Source: Oscillospiraceae bacterium
GTDB lineage: Bacteria > Bacillota > Clostridia > Oscillospirales > Oscillospiraceae
Assembly: GCA_902801295.1 (NCBI GenBank)
Contig: CADCHN010000004.1
Coordinates: 1-64,000 of the forward strand
Direction of reading: 5' to 3'
Length of the DNA stretch: 64,000 nt
Below are positions 1,041 through 43,382 of the stretch, piece by piece. A model generated the notes under the pieces. It was not told where the DNA came from, did no database searches, and saw only the letters and a program-made list of their open reading frames with translations. The stretch's first letter is position 1; every line of letters begins with the position of its first letter. Both the position numbers and the translations under genes were made by a program.

Positions 1041-1156
1041 TTATCAAGGTGAGACAGTGAGATTTTATACGATTTTTTTGGGCGCGTATGGATTCGCTGT
1101 CCGGAATTTCTCCCGACGTTTTACACTCGGGCAATTCGAGATCAGGAGGAAGCACT

Positions 1157-7100: not shown

Positions 7101-7948
7101 CGGCAAGCTTCGTCTGTGAGAATAACGACAGCCATACCGAAGAACTGGATGCGACCGTGACAGTTGAGACGACGGAAGCCACCTGCGACACCGAAGGCAG
7201 CACGACCTACACCGCGACCGTCGAACTCGACGGTGAGCAGTATGAGGACCAACAGGTCGTCACAACACCCGCCCTCGGCCATGACTATGATGTTCCAACC
7301 TATGAGTGGACGGAGACTGCCGGCGGTTACAATGTGACAGCAAAAGCTGTCTGCAAGCGCGACGCGTCTCATGTCGAGACAGAGACTGTAACGGCAGCCT
7401 ATGCGGTCGTTACGGAGCCGACGGCGACTGCTGAAGGCCTTGGCCGCTACACCGCAACCTTTACCAATCCGCTTTTTGAGACGCAGACCAAGGATGTTCC
7501 CATTGAGAAGCTTGGCTGCAAGATCGCGGTCGTTGACTACACCCAGGGTAAGGCTTCGTGCAGTATTGACACAGAACAGTTCTACCACGGTGAACTGAGC
7601 TTCACGGTGTCGTCGGAGGAAGATCAGGCGGTTCTGGTTGCGCTGAAGAACGGCGAAGATTACACGGTGCTTGATTGCACAACGGATGCGGATGGCACGC
7701 ACAGCTTCACGGTCGATGTTCAGAGCAATCTGGAAATCGTGCTTGTCTTCAAGGGAGACGTGACGCTCGACGGCAATGTGAATCTGAAGGATAATCTGAC
7801 GATCAAGAAACACATTGCCGGTTCTGCAGAACTGACGGATCCTCTGGCACTGCTGGCCGGAGACGTTGACGGCGATCACGAGATCAAACTCAAAGATACG
7901 CTGGCAGTCAAGAAGAACATCGCCGGTACCGATTATCTGACGTGGTAA
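1157..7948 (+). CDS. Giant secreted subtilase (S8) with PA, Ig-like, cohesin-like and dockerin-like modules
   Basis: A cell-surface serine protease of 2263 residues, lactocepin-like in its N-terminal half. The ATG at 1157 is chosen because AGGAGG precedes it and a signal peptide follows (MKSAWKR, a hydrophobic core, then GYA). An I9-like propeptide spans about 90-200. The triad is visible: Asp236 in IAIIDTGID, His312 in EHGSHVAG, Ser679 in GTSMAAPH, with oxyanion Asn421 in ISAGN. A PA-like insert lies at about 475-612. Further modules are a dockerin-like pair (about 853-906), a Big_2 Ig-like domain (about 1427-1510), a cohesin-like fold (about 1828-1935), two surface repeats (about 1962-2119) and a C-terminal dockerin-like pair (about 2200-2263). 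There is no LPXTG motif or membrane anchor, so retention probably depends on the non-catalytic modules. Substrate unknown; extracellular protein or peptide is likely. Confidence 0.93.
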   Translation: MKSAWKRILSLLLIAAMVLSFGATGYAVDDDDDIVIIDPEAAAAAEQQLDPVTDGTELELEDLDPATLGVHKLGEDAEEDEISVLETEEELSAKELDPDELIRVSIFLDDAATLDAGYPMRGVGTNSSAAAYRDSLRVRQNALTARIAAETGHEPDVQWNMTLAVNAISAYVRAGDIPVISKMAGVRSIVRENYYEAPKDEVADPNTANTSENMVGAVEAWSSGYTGAGSRIAIIDTGIDTTHQSFAAEPFTYSVGLAGANSELMTQAQVQALASQLNSKSGNYVSAKIPYGYNYVDSNTTINHMSDTNGEHGSHVAGIAAANRYIGSAHNDAASTVGAVGMAPDAQLFIMKVFGAKGGAYDSDYMVAIEDAIVLDCDVVNLSLGSSVQGWTFDDTYQEILNNLTNREHNEGMVVSISAGNAYDFAYMTSAKELYRDDVYYHTGGSPGTFVNSLCVAAAQNTIVKGTPMQFNGSQDVYYYESTENSEGEAYTNPKLTTIVGTYNYVYIDSVGTAAEYSAINSAVSLSGKVVIVNRGELSFVEKGENAKSYSPKAVIIANNAEGTIYMDLSDFTGTFPMVTITQKDANLIKEGGTAHTANGITYYTGSMKVTNTEKSVVIDRSEATITDFSSWGVPGSLLMKPEITAPGGDIYSVAGTNKTTNGSTAGGPDQYENMSGTSMAAPHITGLSGVVAEYLRENPISDRNSELAANYSTRAIIQSLLMSTATAMRPEGNYLPVLQQGAGLADVSKAVSAPSVLMIGDEGNTLTVKTGANADGKVKVEFGDDPEHEGVYSYSFTLYNLSDQDLSYTLRTDLFTQKTDGTYSYRKTMDLPAGGVRYTWNGAAAAPTEEHDVNRDGRTDEADAQAILDYLAYLVEEEDVNLDVADMDGDGNITSYDAHLLLNDEPESGAAGDYVLAAHGTATVEVTIELTAAQRSFLEENFPCGAYLEGFTYVIGSGSTREGQSLDHTHSIPLLGFYGSWTGPSMFDNMSYVDGLYGAERLAYSGNSDTNYLMVNYNGSNIKFSGNPYTVEKDFPADCLALNSGTNLIRISYNLVRAAGTTGYAVTKLDENGQVTDVLNSAITGNNVYGMFYSPNGGWQNTGTKLYTINKTVSSYGLKEGERFRLGFYAIPEYNAMLVNESYNAADSGTLGQAGFNKLLKSNVLGMGALVGYDFVIDNTEPTIDQAQLSGSKITVTASDNENLAYVAVMSLDGTVKYAEAAPGSSSYSITFDATDAIANARGYVAVFAGDYAGNEVAKAVKVNDNAFEDKTVYVLTDSLTAGNDYLIVSRNTVGSGYALGHSGTTVATNAVTVKAGITATDNKPYIDSADVANTSVWTASNGIKLKNGNYYLRRNSNSGSTLQVSTTNSYNSWSYTGTSSKLRFTDRATYLRYTNNTFSLTTTASSIYLFQKTVIRTEIDPYTATGITVTPTSLDLYRGNTADLIAKVTPITAEDRTVTWASSNNSIATVDANGHVEAKAAGTATITATSNGNGAVSAACTVTVTSINKALNGIVWDEEGGVYFSSFNTNNLPAWTKLHNDNKNLQLCSAYMADASTLYAATLDTSSQESTIYTVNRSTYALTEFGNNYVMAFGMARASTRYTDYFVYGFAKYLIFGNLTPTDDGEGGTFSGLPYGLLDLSTTSVGDAYVCGVCAKTISSTSSSFYFLDETGKIWQTTMSIGSSVSFGTPTLVIDTGIGTSFLYQSIYYDGTYIYWSHQTDNEAEMIIINPSAGKVYHAGNFGEGVWPAAGLYVNGSAAPAAVDEEEPMALDLQPVALREDLLTKEVCQRLGIALTGNEKTEVDYEIIDMLDDAAVEEESPEIIEIEPIGTLNAFRGHSALLGKGEVTPDDEGLVKIEIREDSASTNGILSLAYDPTLLAVDKEGTKCNLEHYALFIDDSEEKGVITFAYANKTELPADTVLLEIVFRPACEDSDVYVDRLEHNEDFDLADELDEFNIMGSGHAWGEPNWTWAEDYSSATASFVCENNDSHTEELDATVTVETTEATCDTEGSTTYTATVELDGEQYEDQQVVTTPALGHDYDVPTYEWTETAGGYNVTAKAVCKRDASHVETETVTAAYAVVTEPTATAEGLGRYTATFTNPLFETQTKDVPIEKLGCKIAVVDYTQGKASCSIDTEQFYHGELSFTVSSEEDQAVLVALKNGEDYTVLDCTTDADGTHSFTVDVQSNLEIVLVFKGDVTLDGNVNLKDNLTIKKHIAGSAELTDPLALLAGDVDGDHEIKLKDTLAVKKNIAGTDYLTW

Positions 7949-29739: not shown

Positions 29740-30546
29740 TTATCCTCGCTGCTTTTTCAGCCGCATGCTCAGATAGGCCAGAGCAGCAAGCGAAGACAGG
29801 GCGGAGAGGCTCCAGGCAAGCAGATTCGAATCATCGCCTGTAGGAGGCCTGTTAGGATCATAGATGTTTTTAAATTCCGTAACACCTTGATTCAGTCCGC
29901 TGACCGCGGCAGACAGTTTGCCGTTTCCGTCATCGGTGCGCCGTCGGTCACAGCTTCCAGTCGGAAGCTGAAGGAATCGTCCTGACTCCAGCTTCTGCCG
30001 CTGAACTCTTTGGTCACTTCCACAGCCGCGGAGGCTGGATCCGGCGCGTCCAGCGGGGTGTTCTCCACATGGACAGCGACAATGTCCTGATGCTGCACGG
30101 TAACAGTTCCGTCCTCGTCAACGACTTCAACGGAAGAGGGGATTGTCACATAGAAGGGATCTGCCGGAGCCTTTACTTTGTTACTGGCTTGCTCGACCAC
30201 AAGATATGTGCCTTTTTCCAGTGCAAGGAAGGCATAACCGGTGGAATCAGTGGTGAGAGCGCCGGCCAGGTGATCTTCCGTTGCGCACTTGCTGCTTTCT
30301 TCTTCAGTAGGTTTTCCGCTGAGTGAGGTGCCTTCCTCATGATCAACGCGATCGACGTCAAAGGTGATACCGGAGATGGGAATCTTGGTTTCTTCCGTTG
30401 TCTTGAAGATGCGCAGACCCATGTCGATATCCTTCTCAAAAACGAAAGAGGTTTCGGCGTGGATTCTGGTCTCGCCTTCTCCGATGCCGACCAGGGCCTG
30501 AGACTTAATCTTGGCGCCTCCCGCCTTGCCTCGCGGTGAGAACTAT
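29740..30546 (-). pseudogene. Decayed pilin-like (Cna-B/isopeptide-domain) surface protein
   Basis: Two frames must be joined. The upstream frame, open from about 30546 with no plausible start, reads SFVFEKDIDMGLRIFKTTEE, ISGITFDVDRVDHE, YAFLALEKGTYLVVEQAS and FSFRLEAVTDGAPM, typical of SpaA/Spy0128-like pilin domains, then hits a stop at 29892. A second frame continues GNGKLSAAVSGLNQGVTEF, then RPPTGDDSN, a hydrophobic helix and RLKKQRG: a sortase-type C-terminal anchor. The 5' end, signal peptide and most of the last domain are missing, so this is a remnant cut at both the start and the junction. It occupies most of the gap between spoIIQ and the first DUF218 gene. Confidence 0.8.
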
Positions 30547-30606
30547 GATATAAAAATATTAACAAAAACAGAAATGTGGGGAATAAAGAACAGGAGAAGA
30601 TCACCA

Positions 30607-31560
30607 TTGAAAAAACGACCTGTTTTCATTGCGCTGACATGCGCCGCCCTGCTGTTGGCGCTGTCTGCTCTCGTGCTCATGCCGCAGGGGGAAAAAAGCC
30701 TGACGCTGCAGGATGATACCGAAAACTTCGGTCAACTGCTCACTCACCTCGTGCAGGCCTATGAGAGCCCGTCTGATCGGGATGCGCAGCTCATTAACGC
30801 GGATCTGGCGGCGATCCGGGCTGTGAACAACAAGGATTATGCCCTGGCGAAATCAATCGCCGACCACTGGCGCAGTGTCTTTCTGGATCCAGACTATCCG
30901 CTCTACATCTACCAGGGGGATGGCACTGCGCCGGAGCTGGCCGAAGCCGGTATTCCCAACAGCCGCAGCCATGCCATTGTCGTGCTCGGCTATGAACTGA
31001 TGAACGGCGAGATGCAGCCGGAGCTGATGGGGCGCTGCGACGCGGCTGCCGCGGCGGCGAGGGCTTTCCCGGAGACGATTCTGGTCTGCTCAGGAGGCGC
31101 TACGGGAGAGAACAATCCGAAGGGGAACACCGAGGCCGGCCTGATGAAAGACTATCTGACCGGGCATTGCGGGATCGACGAGGCACGGATTTACATCGAT
31201 GAAAAGGCGATGACCACGGCGGAAAATGCTGTGAATACCTTCCAAATCCTGCAGGAGAACGAGGTTCACACGATGACCATCGTGACTTCTGCCTATCATA
31301 TGCGCTGGGGGCAGGCGGTCTATCATGTGCTGGCGGAGCTGTACCGTGAGCAGCGGGGCTACAGTATTGAAAGTATCGCCAACTTCTGCCTTGACATAGA
31401 GCCGTCTGTGGAAGTCTATCAGGCCGGAGACCGCTTCGCCGCCTATCAGATCGCCGGTATTCTGGGGCTTCCGAACGAGGTGATCCGATCTCTTCCGTCG
31501 CCGACAGAAAAAGTGCGGGAAGAAACGATAGGCAAGCAGCCGGCGGGAACTGCGGCATGA
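30607..31560 (+). CDS. Membrane-anchored DUF218 (YdcF/SanA-like) protein
   Basis: 317 residues: one N-terminal helix (about 5-25), a variable region, then a DUF218 domain with HAIVVLGYELMNGEMQPEL, ILVCSGGATGEN, ENAVNTFQIL and TIVTSAYHMRWGQAVYH. The family is linked to envelope functions (ElyC, SanA) but biochemistry is poorly known. TTG 30607 is favoured because AGGAG lies ten bases upstream and the helix follows; ATG 30574 has no clear SD. It is followed by a second DUF218 gene. I cannot assign a specific function. Confidence 0.8.
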   Translation: MKKRPVFIALTCAALLLALSALVLMPQGEKSLTLQDDTENFGQLLTHLVQAYESPSDRDAQLINADLAAIRAVNNKDYALAKSIADHWRSVFLDPDYPLYIYQGDGTAPELAEAGIPNSRSHAIVVLGYELMNGEMQPELMGRCDAAAAAARAFPETILVCSGGATGENNPKGNTEAGLMKDYLTGHCGIDEARIYIDEKAMTTAENAVNTFQILQENEVHTMTIVTSAYHMRWGQAVYHVLAELYREQRGYSIESIANFCLDIEPSVEVYQAGDRFAAYQIAGILGLPNEVIRSLPSPTEKVREETIGKQPAGTAA

Positions 31561-31595
31561 TATAAACACCTATAAGGATTGAGAGAAAAACTGAC

Positions 31596-32384
31596 ATGAC
31601 AGGGAGAATAACAAGAAGAGTCCTCGGCGATCTTCTGCTCGCTGCGTTTACGCTGCTGACTGCGGACGTTGTGATCGTCATGCTGCACAGGATCCGCGTG
31701 GTCGTGCTGAAGGCGGATTACCGGAATATCTTTCACCATGAACTCATCCTCTGCGGCGTACTGCTGTTGCTTGCGCTGGATGTCCGGCTCGATCTCTTCG
31801 CAAAGCTCAAAAGCGGGGTAGGGAAAGCCATCGGCTGGGGATTGCGCGTCGGAGTGATTCTTCTCTCCGCCGTAATTCTGTTTTTCTGCGGCAGAGTGGT
31901 GATCGGCGGACTGATCAGCACGGCGGAGCCTGCCAATTACGCGATTGTGCTCGGCATGGCGCTGCAGGACGGGAAGCCCACGAAGGATCTGATCTCGCGG
32001 CTCGATACCGCGCAGCAATACCTCGAAGCTGCGCCGGAGGCGGTTTTGATTCTGACCGGGGGCAACCCTGACGCATCCGGCCGCACCGAGGCGGAGGTCA
32101 TGCGTCAGCTCCTGGCGAAGCGCGGCGTTGCGGCCGATCAGATGCTGCTGGAGGATCAGGCGGAGACGACGAAGGAAAACTTCAAGAATACGGCGCGAAT
32201 GCTTCCTTCGAATGATCCTGTTGTACTGATCAGCAGCGATTATCACATGGACAGGGCGGTCGGCACGGCGAAAAGCGCGGGATTTACGCGGGTGCTTCGC
32301 CTTCCGGCGCCGTCCGACTTCTTCGCTTACGGCGCCAATATGATGTGGGAAGTCATTCTGGATCTCCATGAATGGATAAAATAA
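31596..32384 (+). CDS. Multi-helix membrane DUF218 (YdcF-like) protein
   Basis: 262 residues with about three N-terminal helices (about 10-32, 48-66, 82-105) and a C-terminal DUF218 domain: YAIVLGMALQDGKPTKDL, AVLILTGGNPDASGR, ETTKENFKNTARML and VVLISSDYHMDRAVGTAKSAGF. The layout is like YdcF/ElyC proteins involved in envelope polymer metabolism. It starts 36 bases after the previous DUF218 gene, so they are probably one operon, yet the two differ in topology and are not a recent duplication. The SD is weak. Confidence 0.85.
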   Translation: MTGRITRRVLGDLLLAAFTLLTADVVIVMLHRIRVVVLKADYRNIFHHELILCGVLLLLALDVRLDLFAKLKSGVGKAIGWGLRVGVILLSAVILFFCGRVVIGGLISTAEPANYAIVLGMALQDGKPTKDLISRLDTAQQYLEAAPEAVLILTGGNPDASGRTEAEVMRQLLAKRGVAADQMLLEDQAETTKENFKNTARMLPSNDPVVLISSDYHMDRAVGTAKSAGFTRVLRLPAPSDFFAYGANMMWEVILDLHEWIK

Positions 32385-32571: not shown

Positions 32572-32600
32572 TTGACACAGCCTAAGATTTGTAATAAAAT
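32572..32600 (+). promoter_or_regulatory. Strong promoter of the surface-protein/peptide-modification operon
   Basis: Perfect TTGACA at 32572-32577, a 17-bp spacer and TAAAAT at 32595-32600. A leader of about 157 bases runs to the GTG at 32765. The preceding stretch (32385-32571) shows only short inverted repeats and no gene. Confidence 0.8.
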
Positions 32601-32764: not shown

Positions 32765-35700
32765 GTGAAGCATACCCTGAAGAGAACCCTGTCCTTCCTG
32801 CTCGCACTGACGATGGTCCTGTCTCTCGGCCTGCCGGCCTATGCGCTGGACACTGCCGGCAACGAGGGATCCCTGACCGGCGAGCGGCTTCCTGCGGAAC
32901 GCCCCGACCTGGAGGTCGACGTTCCCTCTGTGCAGCCCGTTGAGGAACCCGTGATCGACGAGCCCGTTACTGAGCCCGTCGAGGAAACTGTAGAGGAGCC
33001 CGTCGAGGAACCCACTGAGGAACCCGTTGAGGAGCCCGTCGAGGAACCCGTCGAGGAACCCGTTGAGGAGCCCGTTGAGGAGCCCGTCGAGGAACCTGTC
33101 GAGGAACCTGTCGAGGAACCTGTCGAGGAGCCCGTCGAGGAACCCGCGGTCGAGCTCCAGCCGGTCAACGACGGCATCGTCAACCGGCCGGTCGATGGCG
33201 ACGAGATCATCTCCGTGGACGATTCCATCGGCCTGGAGAAGGGCGAGATCACCGAAAAGGAAGCGATCTACCCCGAGAACGAGTTTACTTATGAGGAAGT
33301 CGAGAGCGGCTTTGCCGTCGATGTTTACGCGCCCTTCGGCGCGCTGCCCGAGGGCACGGAGATGCGCGTGAGCCGTCTGGCCGATCTGGCCGCGGTGCAG
33401 AGCGCGGTGGACGCAGCAGAGAACATGACCGGCGACGTGCAGCTGGCGGCCGATATCAGCTTCTGGTATGAAGGCGAGGAAATCGAGCCCACCGAGGGCA
33501 CGAAGCTCCTGGTTCGTATGAGCGCGCCCGAAATTGAGGGCATTGCGGCGCCCGTCGTCATCCACATCCCCGACGGTGAGAACGCCGTGCCCGAGATCGT
33601 GGATCAGGTGAACAACTCCGAGGACCTCATTATGCTGAACACCGTCTCCTTCGAGGCGGAGAAGTTCTCCGTGTACGCTGTCATCGATGGCGGCACCGAT
33701 GATGAAGCCCGCGTTGCTGTCAACTTCTATAATAACCACCTCGAAGGCGACAAACTCATTGCCACTTACTATGTCAAGAACGGCGACCTTCTCCTCGGCA
33801 ATGGCGAGCGCGATAATACCAAGTCCTATATCGAGGACATCGTGACCGACCCCGGCATTGGCGAGACGCTGGCGAAGGGCTTCCTGTTCCTCGGCTGGAC
33901 CATTGACGATCCGAACGCGAACACGGCTGTGGAAGGCAAGGACTATGACACCGCTCACTACGGCGCCAACTACACCATCAAGACCCACGCCTATGACATT
34001 GACGAGGTCCGTGATTATCTCTCCAAGCTGAATATCACCGAAGGCATGGCTCCTGTCAACGTCTACGCGATGGTCGTCAAGATCTTCGTGGTTACCTATC
34101 TTGACAATGGCGGGATCTCGCTTGGCTCGGAAGACGTGCTGCTGGGCCTGAATGAAAGCTCTGCCCCTTATACCATCACCATGGGCTACACGCCGCTGAG
34201 CCAGGACGAGAACTTCGAGGGCTGGAACGTGGCGGAAGGCACCGTGGCCAACGCGACGGTTGAGAATGAAGAGGGCGAAACCGTACCTGCAACCGCCCCA
34301 TATGCAGTCGGCACCACGATGACGATCTCCGGTGACGTGACCTTCTCCGTCAACGCGCCGAGGGGCCACTGGCTGGTCTTTGAGGAAGTGCAGAAGGGTG
34401 CCACCTATAACGCCCCTGTCTTCGTCCACGAGGGCCAGGTGGCCAATGATTATCGCCCCGACAAGTCTCTGCCGGCGAATATGAAGTGCACCGGCTATAC
34501 CTTCGTGGATTGGTATGAAGCCCAGACGGATGAAAACGGCGTTCCTCTGAAGGATGAGAACAACAATGTCATTCTGAAGACCACCCCCTTCGACTGGAAC
34601 ACGGTCATCGATAAGCGTACGGTGCTGTACGCCAAATGGAATGTGGCGGCCACGGCGACCTACACGGTCATCGTCTGGAAGCAGTCCGTCGTTGATGACA
34701 AAAATGCGGCCGACGCCGATAAGACCTACGACTTCGGGCTCTCCGTTCAGCTGAGCGACGCACCGGATACCAAGGTGGTAGATCTGATAGCCACTGATCT
34801 TGCGCCCTACCTGGGCAAGGACGGCGACAGCATTGGTGACGTTAGTCTGTTCGGCTTCAAGCAGAATACGACGCAGGTCGCCAAAGCAAACAGCGGCAAC
34901 AAGACCATCAAAGTAGACAATGAGGTTACCGGCATTGTGGCCAGCAGCGAAAAAATCGCGGCCAACGGTACTACGGTCATCAACATCTACTACGACCGCG
35001 AGCTGGTGACCTATGATTTCCAGGTTGAAGGATATTATTATAATTACACAACGTATTATTATGGCAGCTATGGACTCGTAGACGGTGTGTATGTTTATCT
35101 AGGTTCATCTGGTAGTTCTCGGTATTATTTAACCTATGAAGATGGTACACCTGTCCCTGCGGATACTACCGTTTATTATAGAAGTAACTATAGCTATAGT
35201 TGGAGCTCTAGTACACAACCTCCATATTATTCTAATTATATCTATGAAGATGTTAACGACAACAGATTAGTGTGGAAGCAGTATACTGGGGATCGGTATA
35301 GCCGTAGCCAAAGTTATGGGTGGCATAACATACAAACTATGACCGGTTTGTATGGCCAGAAACTTTCTAAATATAACTACACATGGCCGACAGATTATAG
35401 GTGGTATATTGGTCCGAACACGACCAGCTTTATAAGTATCGTGGAGATGTTCACCCGGAGTCAAAACGAGAATCCGTCATCTCCATTCAATATGATCTGG
35501 TACGGCAAAAGTACCGAATCAGGTGCCACGATTTATCATTACCTGCAAAATACTGATGAATCCTGGCCTGATTCTGCAACGCATACTGTACCAACGGGAA
35601 TTGGTAGCGGAATGACTTTCCGCGACTTCGCCGGCTTCAAACCGAAAGAGTTCCGGGTAAAATTGCCGAGCGGAGTTACGCAGTATAGGATCGTAACTGC

Positions 35701-38356
35701 AATCAATTCGGGCACTTATACGTACGGCGACACCAAAACCTCAACAAACGGCTGGACAGAATGGCTGGATGACAGCGTTTCCGTTGAGATCAAGAACGGA
35801 AATACAACTTATCATACCAGTTATATTTATCAGAAGCCTGTTGCGGCGTCGGGCGGCATTGAGTTCCGCTATGAGCGCGAAACCTATATCCTGAACTTCA
35901 TGGTCGGCAAGTTCGTCAACGGCAAGAAGGAAGAAATGCCCACCAATGCTGTGGCCGGTCTGCCCAAGACAGTGACCGACATCGCCTATGAGGCTTCTCT
36001 GGCCTCCTACGCCAAGGGCGGCGCCGATTACTTCGATCCGTTCACCAACACGGCCAATGAGCAGCTCGCCGAGCAGTACGTCTTCGACGGCTGGTATGTG
36101 GATGACGCCTGCACGCAGAAATTCGACTTTGCAAAAGCCACCATGCCCCTCGACGGCGTGACCGTCTATGGCAAGTGGATCCAGAAGCAGTACCGTGTGT
36201 TCCTCCATCCGAACGCCACGAGGCCCGACGGCACAGATGACCCTGCTCTTGACTGGGGCTCCGACAGCCAGAGCCTGAACTTCCGCATTGATTACGGCGG
36301 AACGCTCAGCGCGCCGACGCCTCGACGTGAGGCCAGCGGTTATGAATTCATCGGCTGGTACACCGACGAAGCCTGCAAAAACGCGTTTAACCTTGAAACC
36401 AAAATGACTGACGACACGGTCACGACCCCCTATGCGAAGACCGAGTTCACCGATCCGCTCGACAAGTTCGGCAATGTGGAAGAAGGTAAGACCGGCTACA
36501 ACTCCGATATCACCGGCTACAACGGCGGCGACCGTTTCTGGATCACCACGAAGCTGGATCTGTACGGCAAGTGGGGCGCTATCCTGGCCGGCGCTCAGGG
36601 CATTATGATCAAGTACGACGCCAACGGCGGCAGCGGTACCCCGGATGACAGCAGATACTACAAGGATAACGTCGACGCGGTCGCCCAGGCTGCCACAACG
36701 CCTCCCGCACCGACCGAGCAGGATCCCACTGAAAAGCAGTTCCTTTACTGGGTCATGCAGAAGTGGGTCGGAGATGCGGAGACCGGTTCCTATCAGGATA
36801 TTCCCGGCTCCAAGATTTATCCGGGCGATGCGTTCACCGTGCTGAAGTCCAACGCCAAGATCGTTGTAACTGAATATGACGAGAACGACAGCACAAAGAT
36901 CAAGACTGCTACGTACACGGTGCAGCTGCGTGCCGAATACGGCCAGAAGAAAGCTCCCACCGACACGCACATCAATTTCTATGCCAATATCGGCAATGGC
37001 ACTATCGGAGAAGGTGCTGTTGAAAGTCACATTGGTTTGCAGGTCAATGAAGCGATCCTGATTCCGACGGTCGAGACCTACAACCCCGTTGAAATCGATC
37101 ACTCCGATGACACAGCCAACAGAGCTACCAACGAAAACGAAGAGGCTCTCGGCCTGCACAACAACGGCCAGGTCTTCCTTGGCTGGGCAAAGCTGGAAGA
37201 AAGAGCAGACGGCAAGACTTACAGCTATGTAACCGGCAATGTAATTTCGGATACCACAACCCTGACTGAAGCTGACCTGTGGCTCAAGTGGGTAGAAGCT
37301 ACAGACACTTTGCCGGCACATTACGAGTACAATACCTCCAGCGTCACAAAGGTTGCAGCAGACGAAGCCAGCCCCTACCAGGATCTGTACGCGGTATGGC
37401 AGCGCGCCTTCTATGTGTACCACACCTCCACCGGTAAGGTCGAGCGCGTGCTTCTCACCAATGATGTTGATACGGTTAACCTCATCGAGTTGGTTGACAC
37501 GGCTAATTGCCTGTATGGCGGCTATTACAAGGGTTACTCCCTCGCTTCCGATACTTTCAAAGCTGACGCCAATGATCTGCAGTGGACGACTCCGAGCGAA
37601 GTCACCAGTTTCGTAACGGGCAGTACCACCTTTAGTACCCTTGCTGGAAAGAACCTTGTCAAAACTGCAACAGATAGCGGCACAACGTATACTACAACGG
37701 CTGCCATCACGAATGCTGAATGGACAGATGCTTTTGAAACCCGCGGTGACCAGGTGAATCCCACAGCTGATGCCTTGAATCTTCAGAAAGGCGAAGCGCT
37801 GGTGTACTATATCAAGGAAGTTCCCATTGAGAGCTACCTGCGTCCGAACATTAAGTACACCTACAGCCATGGCACCAGAGCGATCGGTACCATTTGGGTC
37901 GTCTCCGGTGTTGATGATGATTCCTACACCAAGGCCGGATTTATAATTGGTGATCAGACTTATGAGTTCGACAAATCCGGTTTCCAGAATCAGATCATCT
38001 TCCACCCGGTCAATGCGAATGAAGACGGCGCCCAGGACATCACCTGCACCTATGAGAATCAGTTCAAGAAATACGGTATTACAAATGGTAAGCTGTATTA
38101 TCTGTGCGTCTTCAATAATTCCGCAGCAGATTCCACCGGTCAGACTGGCGAAGATGTCAATATTCTGACGAATAATGCGCTGGTGTCTCAGTATTGGGTC
38201 ACGCCTGACGGCGCTACTGTCACTGGTAAGTATGCGCGCGCATATCAGGGTATTGAATCCAAAGACAATTTGAAGCCGGTGCCATACGGCGACGGTGACA
38301 ACGCTAAATTGGGCTTTAATCCCGTTGGCTCCACGATTACCTTCCCTGAAGGCTGA
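32765..38356 (+). CDS. Giant secreted surface protein with InlB/Flg_new-type repeats
   Basis: A secreted protein of 1863 residues starting at GTG with GGGAGG upstream. A signal peptide (MKHTLKR, hydrophobic core, PAYA) is followed by a VEEP repeat stalk (about 58-129), a beta-rich N-domain and several Listeria-Bacteroides repeats with the GWY...YxKW pattern (for example FDGWYVDDACTQKFDF, VTVYGKW, FIGWYTDEACKNAF, IKYDANGGSGTP). Residues about 755-950 form a Tyr/Ser-rich segment encoded by AT-rich DNA. It ends GSTITFPEG with no LPXTG, membrane helix, SLH or dockerin module, so how it is retained is unclear. An adhesin-like role is inference. It heads an operon with a small peptide, kinase, PqqD-like protein and nucleotidyltransferase. 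Confidence 0.9.
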   Translation: MKHTLKRTLSFLLALTMVLSLGLPAYALDTAGNEGSLTGERLPAERPDLEVDVPSVQPVEEPVIDEPVTEPVEETVEEPVEEPTEEPVEEPVEEPVEEPVEEPVEEPVEEPVEEPVEEPVEEPVEEPAVELQPVNDGIVNRPVDGDEIISVDDSIGLEKGEITEKEAIYPENEFTYEEVESGFAVDVYAPFGALPEGTEMRVSRLADLAAVQSAVDAAENMTGDVQLAADISFWYEGEEIEPTEGTKLLVRMSAPEIEGIAAPVVIHIPDGENAVPEIVDQVNNSEDLIMLNTVSFEAEKFSVYAVIDGGTDDEARVAVNFYNNHLEGDKLIATYYVKNGDLLLGNGERDNTKSYIEDIVTDPGIGETLAKGFLFLGWTIDDPNANTAVEGKDYDTAHYGANYTIKTHAYDIDEVRDYLSKLNITEGMAPVNVYAMVVKIFVVTYLDNGGISLGSEDVLLGLNESSAPYTITMGYTPLSQDENFEGWNVAEGTVANATVENEEGETVPATAPYAVGTTMTISGDVTFSVNAPRGHWLVFEEVQKGATYNAPVFVHEGQVANDYRPDKSLPANMKCTGYTFVDWYEAQTDENGVPLKDENNNVILKTTPFDWNTVIDKRTVLYAKWNVAATATYTVIVWKQSVVDDKNAADADKTYDFGLSVQLSDAPDTKVVDLIATDLAPYLGKDGDSIGDVSLFGFKQNTTQVAKANSGNKTIKVDNEVTGIVASSEKIAANGTTVINIYYDRELVTYDFQVEGYYYNYTTYYYGSYGLVDGVYVYLGSSGSSRYYLTYEDGTPVPADTTVYYRSNYSYSWSSSTQPPYYSNYIYEDVNDNRLVWKQYTGDRYSRSQSYGWHNIQTMTGLYGQKLSKYNYTWPTDYRWYIGPNTTSFISIVEMFTRSQNENPSSPFNMIWYGKSTESGATIYHYLQNTDESWPDSATHTVPTGIGSGMTFRDFAGFKPKEFRVKLPSGVTQYRIVTAINSGTYTYGDTKTSTNGWTEWLDDSVSVEIKNGNTTYHTSYIYQKPVAASGGIEFRYERETYILNFMVGKFVNGKKEEMPTNAVAGLPKTVTDIAYEASLASYAKGGADYFDPFTNTANEQLAEQYVFDGWYVDDACTQKFDFAKATMPLDGVTVYGKWIQKQYRVFLHPNATRPDGTDDPALDWGSDSQSLNFRIDYGGTLSAPTPRREASGYEFIGWYTDEACKNAFNLETKMTDDTVTTPYAKTEFTDPLDKFGNVEEGKTGYNSDITGYNGGDRFWITTKLDLYGKWGAILAGAQGIMIKYDANGGSGTPDDSRYYKDNVDAVAQAATTPPAPTEQDPTEKQFLYWVMQKWVGDAETGSYQDIPGSKIYPGDAFTVLKSNAKIVVTEYDENDSTKIKTATYTVQLRAEYGQKKAPTDTHINFYANIGNGTIGEGAVESHIGLQVNEAILIPTVETYNPVEIDHSDDTANRATNENEEALGLHNNGQVFLGWAKLEERADGKTYSYVTGNVISDTTTLTEADLWLKWVEATDTLPAHYEYNTSSVTKVAADEASPYQDLYAVWQRAFYVYHTSTGKVERVLLTNDVDTVNLIELVDTANCLYGGYYKGYSLASDTFKADANDLQWTTPSEVTSFVTGSTTFSTLAGKNLVKTATDSGTTYTTTAAITNAEWTDAFETRGDQVNPTADALNLQKGEALVYYIKEVPIESYLRPNIKYTYSHGTRAIGTIWVVSGVDDDSYTKAGFIIGDQTYEFDKSGFQNQIIFHPVNANEDGAQDITCTYENQFKKYGITNGKLYYLCVFNNSAADSTGQTGEDVNILTNNALVSQYWVTPDGATVTGKYARAYQGIESKDNLKPVPYGDGDNAKLGFNPVGSTITFPEG
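32936..33150 (+). repeat. VEEP-coding tandem repeat (stalk)
   Basis: Repeated 12-bp units encode P-V-E-E with occasional T or I changes for about 70 residues. The array is highly acidic and Pro-rich and should form an extended stalk between the signal peptide and first domain. Near-identical units allow in-frame length change. Confidence 0.85.
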
Positions 38357-38375: not shown

Positions 38376-38663
38376 ATGAATAGAAAAAGTTTTTCGGTTC
38401 CTCTTGTCTTCTTGGCGGAAGCCACGTCTGATCCTGTCCCCGGCGGCTACAGTGGCGGCGGCGGCGATGAATGGAACAAACTCAAACCCATCCCGATGAG
38501 CTTCGGCGAGTGGGCGCAGAGCCGTTGGTGCGCGGACTACGACAACAGCGGCAACGTGACCGCTGACGACTACGCCAGATGGTGGGCTCAGTGCGGCCTC
38601 GGCTCCGAAAACTGGGTACAGTTCAACCCCGACGTCGCCTGGAACGACGAATGGACCAAGTAA
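38376..38663 (+). CDS. 95-residue peptide with one EF-hand/dockerin-like loop; candidate modification substrate
   Basis: ATG 38376 follows GAGGTG by seven bases (an ATG at 38370 is too close to it). The N-terminal part, MNRKSFSVPLVFLAEATSDP then VPGGYSGGGG, has a Gly-rich hinge. The C-terminal part is rich in Trp and carries DYDNSGNVTADD, matching the 12-residue calcium loop D-x-D-x-S-G-x-V-x-x-x-D seen in EF-hands and dockerins, between two cysteines (WCADYD and WAQCGLG). It is 19 bases after the giant gene and is followed by an attenuator-like hairpin, then a kinase and a PqqD-like RRE. That context suggests a RiPP-like precursor or a small calcium-binding partner of the surface protein. 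No function recognised. Confidence 0.7.
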   Translation: MNRKSFSVPLVFLAEATSDPVPGGYSGGGGDEWNKLKPIPMSFGEWAQSRWCADYDNSGNVTADDYARWWAQCGLGSENWVQFNPDVAWNDEWTK

Positions 38664-38682
38664 TCCAACCATAATGCAATGA

Positions 38683-38720
38683 GAAATAGCGTGGGGGCTT
38701 CTCCACGCTATTTCCTTTCA
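38683..38720 (+). terminator. Attenuator-like hairpin between the small peptide and the kinase
   Basis: A perfect 12-bp stem (38683-38694 with 38703-38714) and an 8-base loop, followed by a short pyrimidine tract, lie between the peptide stop and the kinase SD. The weak tail suggests partial termination, keeping the peptide more abundant than the downstream enzymes. Confidence 0.65.
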
Positions 38721-38730
38721 GAGGGAATCT

Positions 38731-39462
38731 ATGGAAAAAGTATATGAGGCGGAATATGCGGGCCATCCCGTTCGTTTCGCCTTCCTGGAGCCGCAGACGC
38801 GGAAGCATTTCAAATTCTGGCTCAAGCCCGTCGAGGGTGAGTACTATGATATCAAGGCCACGCCCGAGCTCGTTAAACACGTCCTCGCACATATGCCGGA
38901 GGAAAACCCCGAATACTACGCTGAATACAAAGCTCTGATCGGGCCAACCAGTGCGTTCCTGCTGCGCTTTCGCTGCTGCATTTTTCATGCAGTAGCGTTC
39001 CTCTGGCAAGGCAAAGCCTGGCTGTTGACTGCCCCAAGCGGAACGGGAAAATCTACGCAGTTTATGAATTGGCGTCGCCTTCACCCCGCCGAAATCACGA
39101 TGATCTGCGGAGATATGCCGGTGTTGGAACTGCGGGAGGACGACTCCGTCTGGGTGCACTCCAGTAACTGGAACGGTAAGGAGGGCATCGGCAGCAAGAC
39201 AAGCGCACCGCTCGGTGGCGTAATTCTTTTGGAGCAGGGAAAGGTGAACCAGATTACCCCACTTTCAGCACATGAGGCCGTCCCGGCATTATTGTGCCAA
39301 TTTGCTGTGAGTTATGACACTGAGGAGCAGATCCTCACGGTCTGCGGCATGCTGGATCGGATGCTGAGCAGTTATCCCGCCTGGAAGATGGTTAATTTAG
39401 GCGACAATGACTCGACAGAGCTGCTGCGGAGCACGATTGGAGGATCGAATGGAACGGTATAA
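38731..39462 (+). CDS. HPr-kinase-like ATP-binding protein (HprK-related)
   Basis: 243 residues, cytoplasmic. A P-loop APSGTGKST (about 101-109) is followed by MICGDMPVLEL (about 124-134), SNWNGKEGIGSKTSAPLGGV and ILLEQGKVNQI. This order resembles the HprK-related proteins found next to PqqD-like proteins, including the ScmC-like group and the tailoring kinases of some lasso-peptide clusters; true HPr kinase has a longer N-domain and acts on HPr Ser46. Here it probably phosphorylates a peptide or protein of this operon. GAGGG lies six bases before the ATG. Its end overlaps the PqqD-like gene by 14 bases, indicating coupled translation. Confidence 0.85.
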   Translation: MEKVYEAEYAGHPVRFAFLEPQTRKHFKFWLKPVEGEYYDIKATPELVKHVLAHMPEENPEYYAEYKALIGPTSAFLLRFRCCIFHAVAFLWQGKAWLLTAPSGTGKSTQFMNWRRLHPAEITMICGDMPVLELREDDSVWVHSSNWNGKEGIGSKTSAPLGGVILLEQGKVNQITPLSAHEAVPALLCQFAVSYDTEEQILTVCGMLDRMLSSYPAWKMVNLGDNDSTELLRSTIGGSNGTV

Positions 39463-39754
39463 GACAAGAGACGGTGTTGTGCTGACCACGGTCTGCGGCG
39501 AAATTCTGCTGGTGGCAGCCAGTGCCCTGAGGGAACTTTGCCCCTTCGTCACCGTCGTAAATGACAGCTCCGCTTTTCTCTGGCAGCGACTAAAGATGGG
39601 CGCGACACTTGAGGAACTGGAGCAGGCGGTCAAAGATGAATACGAGATAGACGATCCGGCTATGGTCGAGGGCGTCATCAAGGATTTTGTGAACCAGATG
39701 CTTGAGCTTCACTATCTGGTTGAGGATGAGCAAGGAGAAGGGCATGAAGAATAG
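39449..39754 (+). CDS. PqqD-like RiPP recognition element
   Basis: A 101-residue protein of the PqqD fold: a three-strand/three-helix peptide chaperone that binds a leader sequence and presents it to modifying enzymes. Visible pattern: TVVNDSSAFLWQRLKMGAT, then LEELEQAVKDEYEID and the helix VEGVIKDFVNQMLELHYL, as in stand-alone RREs. ATG 39449 follows GGAGG by five bases inside the kinase gene, and its own end overlaps the next gene. Close coupling of RRE and kinase suggests they act on the same peptide. The likely partner in this window is the 95-residue peptide. Confidence 0.88.
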   Translation: MERYKTRDGVVLTTVCGEILLVAASALRELCPFVTVVNDSSAFLWQRLKMGATLEELEQAVKDEYEIDDPAMVEGVIKDFVNQMLELHYLVEDEQGEGHEE

Positions 39755-40199
39755 AACGATATGGATCATTGCGCTGTGTGTGCTCTTGCTGTTGGGGATT
39801 GTTGCCTTGGCTACGGCTAACAGAGCGACCCCGGGTACTGATTTGCTGGAAGAACGGCCGACGGTGAGCGATACTGAGCAAACAGCTGCAGAACTTGAGT
39901 CTGTAAAGCCGGAAGGTGAAGTCCCCATCGATACCGACCCGGCAAAGGCAACGGAGTCCCCGACTGGTGAAGTACCCGTGGAGAGCAAACCCGCACAGCC
40001 AGAGGCGTCATCCGGAGAAGCCCCCGTTGAAAGTGAGCCGGCGCAGCAAGATCAGGATCAGACCGCGCCGCAGAATACGGAGGCCCCGAGTGGAGAAGCG
40101 CCTTCCGAAAGCGTCGACCCATCTCAGACGACTGAGGAGGAGACGGAGGACGGCGTTGTGATTACCATTCCCGACGGCATGGGCATTGGCGAACTGTAA
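39744..40199 (+). CDS. Membrane-anchored Pro/Glu/Ser-rich low-complexity protein
   Basis: 151 residues: a basic start, one helix (IWIIALCVLLLLGIVALATA, about 5-24), then an acidic, Pro/Ser-rich outer part with degenerate repeats such as SPTGEVPVES, SSGEAPVESEPAQ and PSGEAPSES, ending DGVVITIPDGMGIGEL. ATG 39744 has AAGGAG upstream and overlaps the end of the PqqD-like gene. No known family was recognised. Its Ser/Thr-rich tail could itself be a substrate for the neighbouring kinase or nucleotidyltransferase, but the tail should lie outside the membrane, which argues against that unless modified before export. Confidence 0.7.
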   Translation: MKNRTIWIIALCVLLLLGIVALATANRATPGTDLLEERPTVSDTEQTAAELESVKPEGEVPIDTDPAKATESPTGEVPVESKPAQPEASSGEAPVESEPAQQDQDQTAPQNTEAPSGEAPSESVDPSQTTEEETEDGVVITIPDGMGIGEL

Positions 40200-40203
40200 G
40201 GGT

Positions 40204-41418
40204 ATGGACGAAGCAAAAAAGCTGTTGCTGCATGTACTGCGCGATGCGATACGCGGAGAGAACGCCAATCCGTCAGCGATTCCGATGGAAATGCGCTGGG
40301 AGCTCTATCAGCTTGCTATGGAACACCATGTGCTTCCGCTGGTGACGGACGCACTGCATGTTGAGAGCACTGATAAAAGGAAAAAGCTTGGCGTTGAGGA
40401 GCAGGCAAAGCAGCTTGTCATTGCACAGGCACAGCATACGGCGGACTTCCTGCTGCTGTTGAAAGATCTGGAACAGCATGGTCTGCGGCCGCTTGTAGTA
40501 AAGGGGATCGTCTGCCGAAATTGTTATCCCGAGCCGGAGTTGCGCCCTTCGGTGGACGAGGACCTGCTGATCCGTCCGGAGGAATACGCTGCATATCGTA
40601 CGGCTCTTGAAGCAGCGGGATTTCAGACCGATGACACCAGTGACGGAGAGAACTATGAGGTCTCTTTCCTCCATCCGGGCAGCCATCTCTGTGTCGAGAT
40701 CCACACTTGTCTGTTTCCTGCTGAGTCGGAGGCTTACGGCGACTGCGCCCGTTACTTTGACGGCGCGATGGACCGGGCGGTTGAGCGAGAAATCGAAGGA
40801 ATGACCCTCAAAACGCTTGCACCGACGGATCATCTGCTCTTTCTGCTCTGTCATGCGTACAAGCATTTCCTGCACGGCGGCGTTGGCATCCGACAGCTCT
40901 GCGACATGGCGCTGATGGCGGAGAAAGACGGAGATCGGATCGACTGGCCTTATATTCGCAGCGCTTGCGATGAACTGCATATCGCTGTATTTTCAGCGGC
41001 GATGCTTCGCATTTGCGACAAGCAGCTCGGCTTTGCAATGCCGGAAGTTTTTGCAGACATTGCAGTAGATGAAAGCGATTTGCTGAAGGATATTCTCAGC
41101 GGCGGACTCTATGGGGTCGAGGACATCGACCGGGCACACAGCAGCACGATGACGCTGGAGGCGGTGTCGGCTGCCCGCAGCGGGCGAAAACGCAAGGGCG
41201 CGCTGCACTCGGTGTTTTTGCCGCTGGACGCGATGCGTGGCCATTTCCCGTATCTCCGGCGGTACCCATGGCTGCTGTCGGTGGCATGGGCGCAGCGAAT
41301 CTGTCGCTATCTTGCGCGGAAGAGCCACCCGGATCCCGTCAGCCCTGCCAGAAGCCTCCAGATCGCCCGTGAGCGCATTGCTCTGTTGGCGGAGTACAAG
41401 TTGATCGATCAATTATGA
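40204..41418 (+). CDS. PF14907-type nucleotidyltransferase-fold protein
   Basis: 404 residues, cytoplasmic. The N-terminal half holds a nucleotidyltransferase fold of the type found near PqqD-like and HprK-like genes: LRPLVVKGIVCRNCYPEPEL, then RPSVDEDLLI with the metal-binding D-x-D-like acidic pair, and VEIHTCLFP. The middle HLLFLLCHAYKHFLHGGVG and IRQLCDMALM are also typical. Members occur in kinase-containing lasso-peptide and polysaccharide clusters; the reaction is not established. ATG 40204 has only a short AAGGG site; coupling to the preceding stop (five bases away) probably drives initiation. A terminator follows, closing the operon. Confidence 0.85.
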   Translation: MDEAKKLLLHVLRDAIRGENANPSAIPMEMRWELYQLAMEHHVLPLVTDALHVESTDKRKKLGVEEQAKQLVIAQAQHTADFLLLLKDLEQHGLRPLVVKGIVCRNCYPEPELRPSVDEDLLIRPEEYAAYRTALEAAGFQTDDTSDGENYEVSFLHPGSHLCVEIHTCLFPAESEAYGDCARYFDGAMDRAVEREIEGMTLKTLAPTDHLLFLLCHAYKHFLHGGVGIRQLCDMALMAEKDGDRIDWPYIRSACDELHIAVFSAAMLRICDKQLGFAMPEVFADIAVDESDLLKDILSGGLYGVEDIDRAHSSTMTLEAVSAARSGRKRKGALHSVFLPLDAMRGHFPYLRRYPWLLSVAWAQRICRYLARKSHPDPVSPARSLQIARERIALLAEYKLIDQL

Positions 41419-41420
41419 CG

Positions 41421-41452
41421 AAAGACCTCCCTTGCTTGGGAGGTCTTTTCTC
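41421..41452 (+). terminator. Terminator closing the peptide-modification operon
   Basis: An 11-bp perfect stem (41421-41431 with 41438-41448) and a T run directly after the nucleotidyltransferase stop. Confidence 0.92.
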
Positions 41453-41547: not shown

Positions 41548-41597
41548 AACATATTGGATTGATAGATCAAAATGGGTGACGTATGCGGAGAAGCGGC

Positions 41598-43382
41598 ATG
41601 GAAAAACCGAACGATGAAAACAAAGCGCTGTTTCAGTCGCTGCATATCCTGAAAACCCGCTGGAAGAATGGCACCTTCGGTGAAATCCTCGACGACTGGC
41701 GCTGGATCTTCGGCTACAGCAGGCGCTATAAGCTCGCCATTGTGTTCTATACGCTGCTCGGCGTTTTCAGCACGACGCTTGGCCTTGTCGCGAGCGTTGC
41801 GAGCAAGTATGTCATCGATATCATCACAGGCTATGAAACCAGCAAACTCGGCGCGATGATCGCCATCATGCTGGGCAGCGCGCTATTCAGCCTGGCCTTT
41901 TCCAATCTCATCAACCGCATTTCCACCAAGCTCAGCATTGACATCAACAACGACATCCAGGCCGACATTTTCGATCAGATCATCGACGTTGATTGGAAGG
42001 CAATCAATGCCTACAGCAGTGGCGACCTGCTCAACCGCTTCAACAGCGACGTCGGCACGGTCAGCAAAAACGCCATCAGCTGGCTGCCGTCGATCATCAT
42101 CGCGGTCTACAACTTCATCGTCACCTTCGCGCTGATCTGGCATTACAATCGGGTCATGTCCCTGCTGGCCTTCGCCAGCGCGCCGATCCTGCTGCTGATG
42201 AGCAAGTATTTCATCAAAAAGCAGCGGGAATACGCGCGGCAGGTCAAGGAAACCGGCAGTGAGATGATGGGCTTCGAGGTCGAGACCTTTTACAACTTCG
42301 ACACCATCAAGTCCTTCGGCGTGATGGAAAATTACGGACGCAAGCTGCGTGCCTGGCAGCGGCGCCTGAAATCCATCACCCTCGACTATAATCTCTTCAC
42401 GATCAAGACTAATGTCTTTATGTCGATCCTTGGCATGATCGTGCAGTACGCGGCCTTCGGTTACAGCCTGTTTCTGCTCTGGTCGCACCAGATCACCTAC
42501 GGCACGATGACGCTGTTTCTCGAGCAGCGCGGCCGCCTCTCCAGCGCCTTCAACAGCGTGGTGGGCATCATTCCGTCCTTCCTGACAAGCTCCGTCTCCG
42601 CACACCGTATCCGCGAGCTCATTGAGCTGCCGCGTGAGCGGCACCTGTCGGAGAGTGAGGGACTCAAGGAACTGGCCGACCGCGGCTTTGAGGTGAACAT
42701 GCGCGACCTCAGCTTTGCCTATGTGGACGGAAAGAAGGTCATTGTCGACTCGGCGTTCCGCGCCTGCCCGGGAGAGATCGTCGCGCTGGTCGGGCCTTCC
42801 GGCGAGGGCAAGACGACAATGATCCGGCTGATGCTCGGACTCATCCGCCCTGACGAGGGGAAAGCCTTTCTGCGTGCTGCCGATGGCAGTGAAGTGGAGA
42901 TGAACGCGGACAGCCGCGGCCTCTTCTCCTATGTGCCGCAGGGCAACACGATCCTCTCCGGCACCGTGGCGGAGAACCTGCGTCTCGTAAAAGAGAACGC
43001 CAGCGACGAGGAGCTTGAGGAAGCGCTGAAAACCGCCTGCGCCTGGGACTTCGTCTCGAAGCTGCCGGACGGCATGAATACCCGGGTAGGGGAGCGCGGC
43101 CGGGGTTTTTCCGAAGGCCAGGCCCAGCGCATCGCCATCGCCCGCGCCGTGCTGCGCGACGCACCGATCCTGCTGCTCGACGAGGCCACCTCGGCGCTCG
43201 ACGTGGCGACCGAACGGCAGGTGCTGCGCAACATCATCCGTCAGCGGCCGAATAAAACCTGCATCGTGACGACCCACCGCCCTACTGTGCTGAACCTGTG
43301 CCAGCGGGTATACCGCGTGATGGACAAGCGCGTGACCGAGCTGAGCGAAGAGGAGTCCAGCCGCATGGCGATGGACTTTTGA
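41598..43382 (+). CDS. ABC exporter (permease plus ATPase) heading the EPS locus
   Basis: 594 residues: a six-helix exporter domain and an ATPase with GPSGEGKTT, the variant signature FSEGQAQR, Walker B ILLLDEATSALD and a TTHR switch. The exporter halves form a homodimer. ATG 41598 has GGAG seven bases upstream; ATG 41583 lacks an SD. It could flip lipid-linked sugars (PglK/MsbA-like) for the polysaccharide genes that follow, or export the peptide of the operon just upstream, since exporters of this type are the D component of lasso-peptide clusters. No C39 peptidase domain is present. Function left open. Confidence 0.88.
   Translation: MEKPNDENKALFQSLHILKTRWKNGTFGEILDDWRWIFGYSRRYKLAIVFYTLLGVFSTTLGLVASVASKYVIDIITGYETSKLGAMIAIMLGSALFSLAFSNLINRISTKLSIDINNDIQADIFDQIIDVDWKAINAYSSGDLLNRFNSDVGTVSKNAISWLPSIIIAVYNFIVTFALIWHYNRVMSLLAFASAPILLLMSKYFIKKQREYARQVKETGSEMMGFEVETFYNFDTIKSFGVMENYGRKLRAWQRRLKSITLDYNLFTIKTNVFMSILGMIVQYAAFGYSLFLLWSHQITYGTMTLFLEQRGRLSSAFNSVVGIIPSFLTSSVSAHRIRELIELPRERHLSESEGLKELADRGFEVNMRDLSFAYVDGKKVIVDSAFRACPGEIVALVGPSGEGKTTMIRLMLGLIRPDEGKAFLRAADGSEVEMNADSRGLFSYVPQGNTILSGTVAENLRLVKENASDEELEEALKTACAWDFVSKLPDGMNTRVGERGRGFSEGQAQRIAIARAVLRDAPILLLDEATSALDVATERQVLRNIIRQRPNKTCIVTTHRPTVLNLCQRVYRVMDKRVTELSEEESSRMAMDF

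Follow-up and report, generated by a model that had tools for sequence, protein, structure and literature searches.

The window analysed here, a stretch of 64,000 nucleotides from the Oscillospiraceae bacterium assembly GCA_902801295.1 (contig CADCHN010000004.1), encodes at positions 38376-41418 what is likely a tailoring cassette of the type known from ribosomally synthesised and post-translationally modified peptides (RiPPs). The overall reading that we favour, and in which we place intermediate confidence, is that the peptide of this cassette, once exported, serves a giant secreted protein as its own dedicated partner, probably as a tether. Gene content and order, the pairing of giant and peptide, the family of the RiPP recognition element (RRE), the fold of the kinase and the conserved motifs are established by sequence or by predicted fold. 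In the mechanism we propose, the RRE would hold a small EF-hand-like peptide by its front strand, the peptide's Gly-rich linker would be phosphorylated by the kinase, the PF14907 enzyme would decorate the phosphate with a sugar or a nucleotide, and an MsbA-like ATP-binding cassette (ABC) protein would export the product, which outside the cell would partner the giant encoded just 5' of it.

The pairing of giant and peptide was followed through the 102 genomes of the genus, 22 of which contain a match to the kinase at E ≤ 1e-20. The giants vary in their middle (of five relatives scanned, four carry List_Bact_rpt repeats and one VWA, DUF7601 and DUF7604 domains) and have a common C-terminal domain (A5), found as 19 matches in 13 genomes, all 13 being among the 22 with a kinase match and none among the other 80. 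Two of these matches are cut by contig ends. Behind the giant in 16 of the 17 readable cases lies a short gene, 16-33 bases 3', which in 13 encodes this peptide family and in three (twice in genome G033, once in G026) a diverged protein that the peptide profile does not match; in the one remaining case the giant is followed first by the stalk gene and then, at +429, by a degenerate peptide. Conversely, a search of the 102 genomes with the peptide profile returns 14 matches, spread over 11 genomes, and nothing else; 13 lie behind a giant, and the fourteenth precedes the G046 kinase at the edge of a contig. At loci L116 and L117 the stretches read around the pair, which for L117 stop with the contig 1.4 kb behind the peptide, hold no kinase, no RRE and no PF14907 gene; these genes lie elsewhere in the same genomes. 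The giant domain was also found in 8 of 400 genomes drawn from the family; of the five among these eight that lie outside the genus, three (L124, L125 and L128) have kinase and RRE beside the giant. Six giants scanned against Pfam showed no recognised anchor domain, and this, together with the pairing and the folded EF-hand-like core of the peptide described below, suggests that the peptide is the giant's partner, perhaps its tether. A physical partnership between the peptide and the giant's C-terminal domain seems to us rather likely, the tethering of the giant to the membrane, the stalk protein or polysaccharide a tentative proposal. A first-pass annotation of this DNA had offered either the peptide or part of the giant as client of the RRE; the cassette is indeed RiPP-like with the peptide as likely client, but the giant looks like the peptide's partner instead.

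Organisation and conservation of the cassette

The features of the locus are as follows.

32572..32600, plus strand: promoter-like site TTGACA-17-TAAAAT, 11/12 consensus matches, a consensus match only
32765..38356, plus strand: giant secreted protein, 1863 residues, List_Bact_rpt/Flg_new repeats; conserved C-terminal domain (A5) at about 37574-38353
38376..38663, plus strand: small peptide, 95 residues, predicted RRE client
38391..38414, plus strand: front strand F6-S-V-P9-L-V-F-L13 of the peptide, counterpart of the [Y/W]xxPx[L/V] RRE-binding motif of PMC13381572
38439..38465, plus strand: Gly-rich linker P22-G30 of the peptide, including S26, candidate phosphoacceptor region
38535..38570, plus strand: EF-hand/dockerin-type loop D54-D65 of the peptide, under Pfam cut-offs
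38731..39462, plus strand: HprK-fold kinase, Walker A at about 39034-39057
39449..39754, plus strand: discrete RRE (PqqD-like), from Pfam PqqD and RRE profile comparison
39744..40199, plus strand: membrane-anchored low-complexity stalk protein, conserved tail ...VVITIPDGMGIGEL
40204..41418, plus strand: PF14907 nucleotidyltransferase-like enzyme, KG...DED motif
41420..41449, plus strand: terminator-like stem, 12 pairs
41583..43382, plus strand: MsbA-like ABC exporter, tied to the cassette in relatives

All five genes that the first-pass annotation placed at 38376-41418 (peptide, HprK-like kinase, PqqD-like protein, membrane anchor and PF14907 enzyme) are present, Pfam and the kinase fold agreeing, and the overlaps it described between the kinase, RRE and anchor genes measure 14 bases (kinase/RRE) and 11 bases (RRE/anchor). 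Its giant secreted repeat protein is likewise borne out by a signal-peptide-like N-terminus and the repeats listed above. PqqD (PF05402) scores 31 bits on the RRE (cut-off 23.4) and NTP_transf_5 (PF14907) 161.9 bits on the 40204-41418 protein (cut-off 31.2), and the genome to which the window belongs, 2.0 Mb in size and 95.5% complete, has its sole PF14907 match and its sole above-cut-off PqqD match in this locus. Peptide and kinase have no Pfam match; the peptide could alternatively start at an in-frame ATG two codons 5', giving 97 residues. The single transcript proposed earlier, from a promoter at 32572 to a terminator at 41421, is likely only: both sites exist, but neither class of site is clearly enriched in the region over shuffled sequence (10 promoter-like sites against a shuffle mean of 6.6, sd 2.8; 8 terminator-like sites against 9.6). 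Two tandem DUF218 proteins (30511-32384) lie immediately 5' of the giant gene, and 3' of the terminator-like stem the MsbA-like ABC protein is followed by a CpsB/Wzz-type polysaccharide operon (Pfam). Positions 1088-7948 of the window that holds the dockerin-like peptide encode a subtilase-family protein of 2286 residues whose domains include PA, Big_2 and, at 50 bits, a true Dockerin type I.

Relatives keep the gene order and have a peptide beside other copies of the cassette, so that two of the three outcomes that would have refuted the first-pass annotation did not come about. Seventeen loci of the closer clade were read, among them the window and L054 (uncultured Oscillospiraceae); the RRE adjoins the kinase in 16 and the PF14907 gene is nearby in 15; the G006 locus is cut by its contig, and its PF14907 gene adjoins the exporter on another contig. 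By criteria that we set ourselves (hydrophobic start, low complexity) the stalk protein is recognised in 15 of 18 regions scanned, with a low-complexity body and a conserved tail in which an Ile and a Pro are near-invariant (11 aligned); those of L060 and L125 have a lipoprotein-like start. Close relatives of the ABC protein (E ≤ 1e-180) occur in 19 of the 102 genus genomes, and in 14 of these 19 a cassette gene lies immediately 5' (the PF14907 gene in 10, the peptide in 2, the kinase in 2), while in L128, from another genus of the same family, the ABC gene overlaps the PF14907 gene. For these reasons we count the ABC protein into the system, extending the gene set as first drawn to the exporter at 41583 despite the terminator-like stem; in the window it is a member of the system in a separate predicted transcription unit.

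TIGR02228, the SpI leader peptidase profile, is above cut-off only twice in 13 cassette genomes, both times on contig C12 of the own genome, outside the cassette loci. As no leader peptidase is found in the loci, the leader would either be kept or be cut by an enzyme encoded elsewhere. On C12 (8000-26000, L063) two archaeal-type signal peptidases stand amid proteins with FAKY/FARY-like starts, a possible leader peptidase in trans. We take the proteins around these SpI genes to be TasA/camelysin-like, giving the region a SipW/TasA-type look.

The peptide, the recognition element and the putative tailoring enzymes

The peptide family was assembled as 108 sequences, 93 from a search with the alignment, 11 from loci, and 3 and 1 from other searches, and none of the 93 has a precomputed Pfam domain. 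Its front strand is marked by a Pro in all 104 members that have the column and by Ile, Val or Leu two residues further in the same 104; F-x(1-2)-P is found in 99 of 108 (shuffle mean 1.5, maximum 7), with two residues between Phe and Pro in 33, the window peptide (FSVP) among them. In the Gly-rich linker one column is Ser or Thr in 106 of 108, the window being one of the two exceptions (Y25) with its S26 one residue on, and T-G-Q-S occurs in 72, T-x-Q-S in 73. In the linear polyphosphorylated peptides (LPPs), for which Paenibacillus alginolyticus has the lpp cluster (Nat Commun 2026, PMC13381572), the leader is cleaved after the Thr of T-A-Q-S and that Ser is phosphorylated, a likeness that points to a modification site in this part of the linker; in the window the linker reads GGYSGGGG, which amounts to no more than a degenerate T-G-Q-S. 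The C-terminal half is compact (predicted local distance difference test (pLDDT) 82-92 from residue 41 on), Trp46 is invariant in the family, and an EF-hand/dockerin-type loop is present in 85 of 108 by a relaxed pattern (shuffle mean 1.3, maximum 6) and in 24 by a strict one (shuffle 0.1). EF-hand proteins head the PDB profile matches, which are weak (best E 0.007); the window peptide has no Dockerin or EF-hand Pfam match, and those of ten relatives are all below cut-off, the best being 16.5 bits for both Dockerin_1 and EF-hand_1 (cut-offs 22.9 and 25.4). We consider Ca2+ binding by this core likely. Outside these motifs the sequences vary strongly. Judged from its sequences this is a new precursor family, whose members combine the F-x(1-2)-P motif of the front strand with a [T/S] linker rich in Gly and a core that resembles an EF-hand.

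Comparison of the RRE profile with solved RREs of lasso and LPP systems gives matches to TbiB1, LppB, TfuB1 and PbaB1 (5v1u, 9x8z, 6jx3 and 9x90) at E from 9.8e-5 to 0.02. In LppB, Asp70 holds the leader tyrosine, and leader Tyr and Pro are required for RRE binding, according to the LPP main text (PMC13381572). When 36 RREs are aligned with these four, TbiB1, TfuB1 and LppB show Asp at this position and PbaB1, which reads tryptophan, shows Gln; the window has Val, and all nine other cassettes in which a Phe leader can be seen have a nonpolar residue there. With the 16 of 36 RREs that have no recognised precursor in reach left out (9 of them have Asp) and L125 read by eye, Asp is present in 6 of 6 Tyr-leader and 0 of 15 Phe/Trp-leader systems, for which the Fisher value of 1.8e-5 overstates the case, as the alignment rows share ancestry. 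A leader Phe matched by a nonpolar residue in the RRE pocket would then form a natural third class beyond the published rule of Tyr/Trp leader discrimination. Binding of the peptide by the RRE is quite probable.

Several related loci combine these elements differently. Two complete cassettes face each other on one contig in L038 (G033:C45), differing in leader and in RRE residue type, and fit the rule, one with a YLSP leader and Asp, the other with no Tyr-xx-Pro leader and Ser. A distant kinase/RRE pair in L050 (G035:C16) has an RRE with Asp70 and a weak, sub-cut-off SpI match nearby (G035:C16:9203-9427), which is what a canonical LPP cluster would lead one to expect; the same genome carries the Phe-type cassette as well. 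At L093 and L094 (G113:C135 and G012:C24) one RRE, with Thr or Ala at the Asp70 position, lies between two precursor-like proteins with Phe (KKAF-x-MP) and Trp (KKTW-xx-P) front motifs, accompanied by a kinase and an ABC exporter. L027, L029, L043 and L044, from the same order and some from the same genus, have LPP-like YxxP peptides of 32-39 residues beside a kinase and an Asp70 RRE.

The AlphaFold2 model of the kinase (mean pLDDT 91.9) has as its top Foldseek matches the L. casei HprK/P structures 1kkl and 1kkm, probability 1.00, and structural re-alignment returns PEPCK and HprK/P chains. By this predicted fold and its Walker A motif the kinase belongs to the HPr kinase/PEPCK superfamily; NCBIfam matches are sub-threshold only, the best being ScmC. 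Since the LPP kinase phosphorylates its precursor (PMC13381572), analogy makes phosphorylation of the peptide here quite probable. PsmN, as described in PMC9266682, installs hexoses on phospho-Ser, and the PF14907 enzyme may by the same reasoning add a hexose or a nucleotide, which we regard as an evenly balanced question. Export by the MsbA-like protein is probable, following from the gene content of LPP clusters.

Alternative explanations for the cassette

A number of observations weigh against a peptide that is recognised, modified, exported and paired with the giant as we propose. The leader is non-canonical, with Phe for Tyr/Trp and a spacing from Phe to Pro of one residue in 67 of 108 members; T-G-Q-S, the lookalike of the LPP site, is absent from the window peptide; and model confidence is low over the first 40 residues, the predicted fold having no PDB match. 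Besides the shared ancestry behind the RRE-leader co-variation, the YLIP peptides of L039 and L040 go with Gly at the Asp70 position, and counting them brings Tyr/Asp to 6 of 8. LppN, the NTP transferase of LPP, was without detectable activity in a heterologous host (PMC13381572). Among the loci, G043:C53 has two kinases and neither an RRE nor a PF14907 gene, and no SpI-type leader peptidase is found in them. For 5 of the 19 close exporters the 1.5 kb read upstream holds no cassette gene, in L054 the exporter is transcribed away from the cassette, and the terminator-like stem separates the two in the window. Lastly, two giants from other genera, those of L126 and L127, have no kinase or RRE within the sequence read, and at L124 the front motif is missing from the short gene that follows the giant.

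Three rival explanations were weighed. The peptide might be an ordinary secreted RiPP (a signal, antimicrobial or biofilm compound) of an LPP-type cluster, with the giant a mere travelling neighbour: LPP clusters too lie in polysaccharide loci and are patchily distributed, their main text leaving open the role of the peptides and the job of the NTP (nucleoside triphosphate) transferase (PMC13381572), and the peptides here are highly variable outside their motifs. However, giant and peptide are paired in both directions, even in L116 and L117 where no tailoring gene was seen in the stretches read, and the core is folded and conserved, not variable; we consider this account unlikely, if worth keeping in view. 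That the kinase, RRE and PF14907 enzyme instead target the giant, the stalk protein or a polysaccharide intermediate, the peptide being an adaptor, chaperone or regulator, would fit the conserved stalk tail and the polysaccharide operon bordering the locus. Yet giant and stalk start with export signals or membrane segments, so that cytoplasmic enzymes would meet them in passing only, while the RRE-leader co-variation and the action of LPP kinases on their precursor (PMC13381572) both point to the peptide, and such a choice of substrate appears distinctly improbable. Decay of a lasso-peptide cluster through loss of cyclase and protease is suggested by the RRE, kinase and NTP transferase common to paeninodin/pseudomycoidin-type clusters (PMC13381572; PMC9266682, in the parts that treat them). 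The absence of both enzymes, already remarked in the first-pass annotation, stands, as no macrolactam cyclase is found in the locus and PF13471 (B2 protease) gives nothing above cut-off in the own genome, where the two hits of PF00733 are short, lie on other contigs and score 21.0 bits (at cut-off) and 19.9. But this reduced set is kept across the genus and in other genera, and the peptide core is a conserved domain, leaving decay hardly credible.

If the exported peptide is indeed the partner of the giant, the set might serve a sortase-independent surface display derived from RiPP machinery, in which the giant's C-terminal docking domain replaces a wall anchor and the tagged, exported EF-hand peptide locks that domain to polysaccharide or stalk. 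The tag would be a phosphate plus a sugar or nucleotide on the linker, placed by the RRE-kinase-PF14907 set before export by the MsbA-like pump. As a whole we regard this scheme, tag included, as doubtful. Were the tether reading true, RiPP enzymes would here make a part for protein anchoring and display, not a small-molecule product.

Relation to known systems

Among kinase-containing RiPP systems, the kinase-tailored lasso peptides (paeninodin, pseudomycoidin) share with this cassette an HprK-like kinase, a discrete RRE, whose profile matches PbaB1, and a nucleotidyltransferase; here the B2 protease and a locus cyclase are lacking, as noted above, and the peptides have no conserved C-terminal Ser. 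SynChlorMet also pairs an HprK-like with a PqqD-like protein (ScmC/ScmD; TIGR04249, TIGR04248), the similarity being weak (20.1 bits where the cut-off is 125, and 13.5 where it is 100). With Dockerin type I and EF-hand domains the peptide shares the loop D-x-D-x-S-G-x-V-x-x-x-D, present as a single copy and with no Pfam match.

The closest likeness is to the LPP clusters as set out in the main text of PMC13381572. The RRE, HprK-like kinase, NTP transferase and MsbA-like exporter that form the LPP core are found together here, the window exporter in its separate predicted unit, and the two further share a precursor with an xxP front motif, the lack of a cyclase, the polysaccharide locus and a T-x-Q-S site (in 72-73 of 108 family members, not in the window linker). 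The first-pass description of the system as undescribed therefore does not hold for this gene combination. The cassette likely works in the manner of LPP, to which gene content relates it. We do not class it as LPP proper, because the SpI (SipW-like) leader peptidase, by which LPP was defined, is absent from the cassette loci and the LPP precursor consensus YxxPxVLxHQxIxFETxxS is replaced by F-x(1-2)-P-x-[IVL]. Further differences from LPP are the Phe leader, an RRE without Asp70, the folded EF-hand-like core, the giant secreted partner and the stalk protein. Three of these are new: the class of Phe leaders, the folded core and the giant as partner. None of them is in the LPP main text (by word look-up) or among the results listed by literature searches. 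An LPP-like peptide here has a folded core and a partner identifiable from sequence, and its function, whether holding, carrying or maturing the giant, becomes testable, so that a recently described class of modified peptides without an assigned role would gain a testable job.

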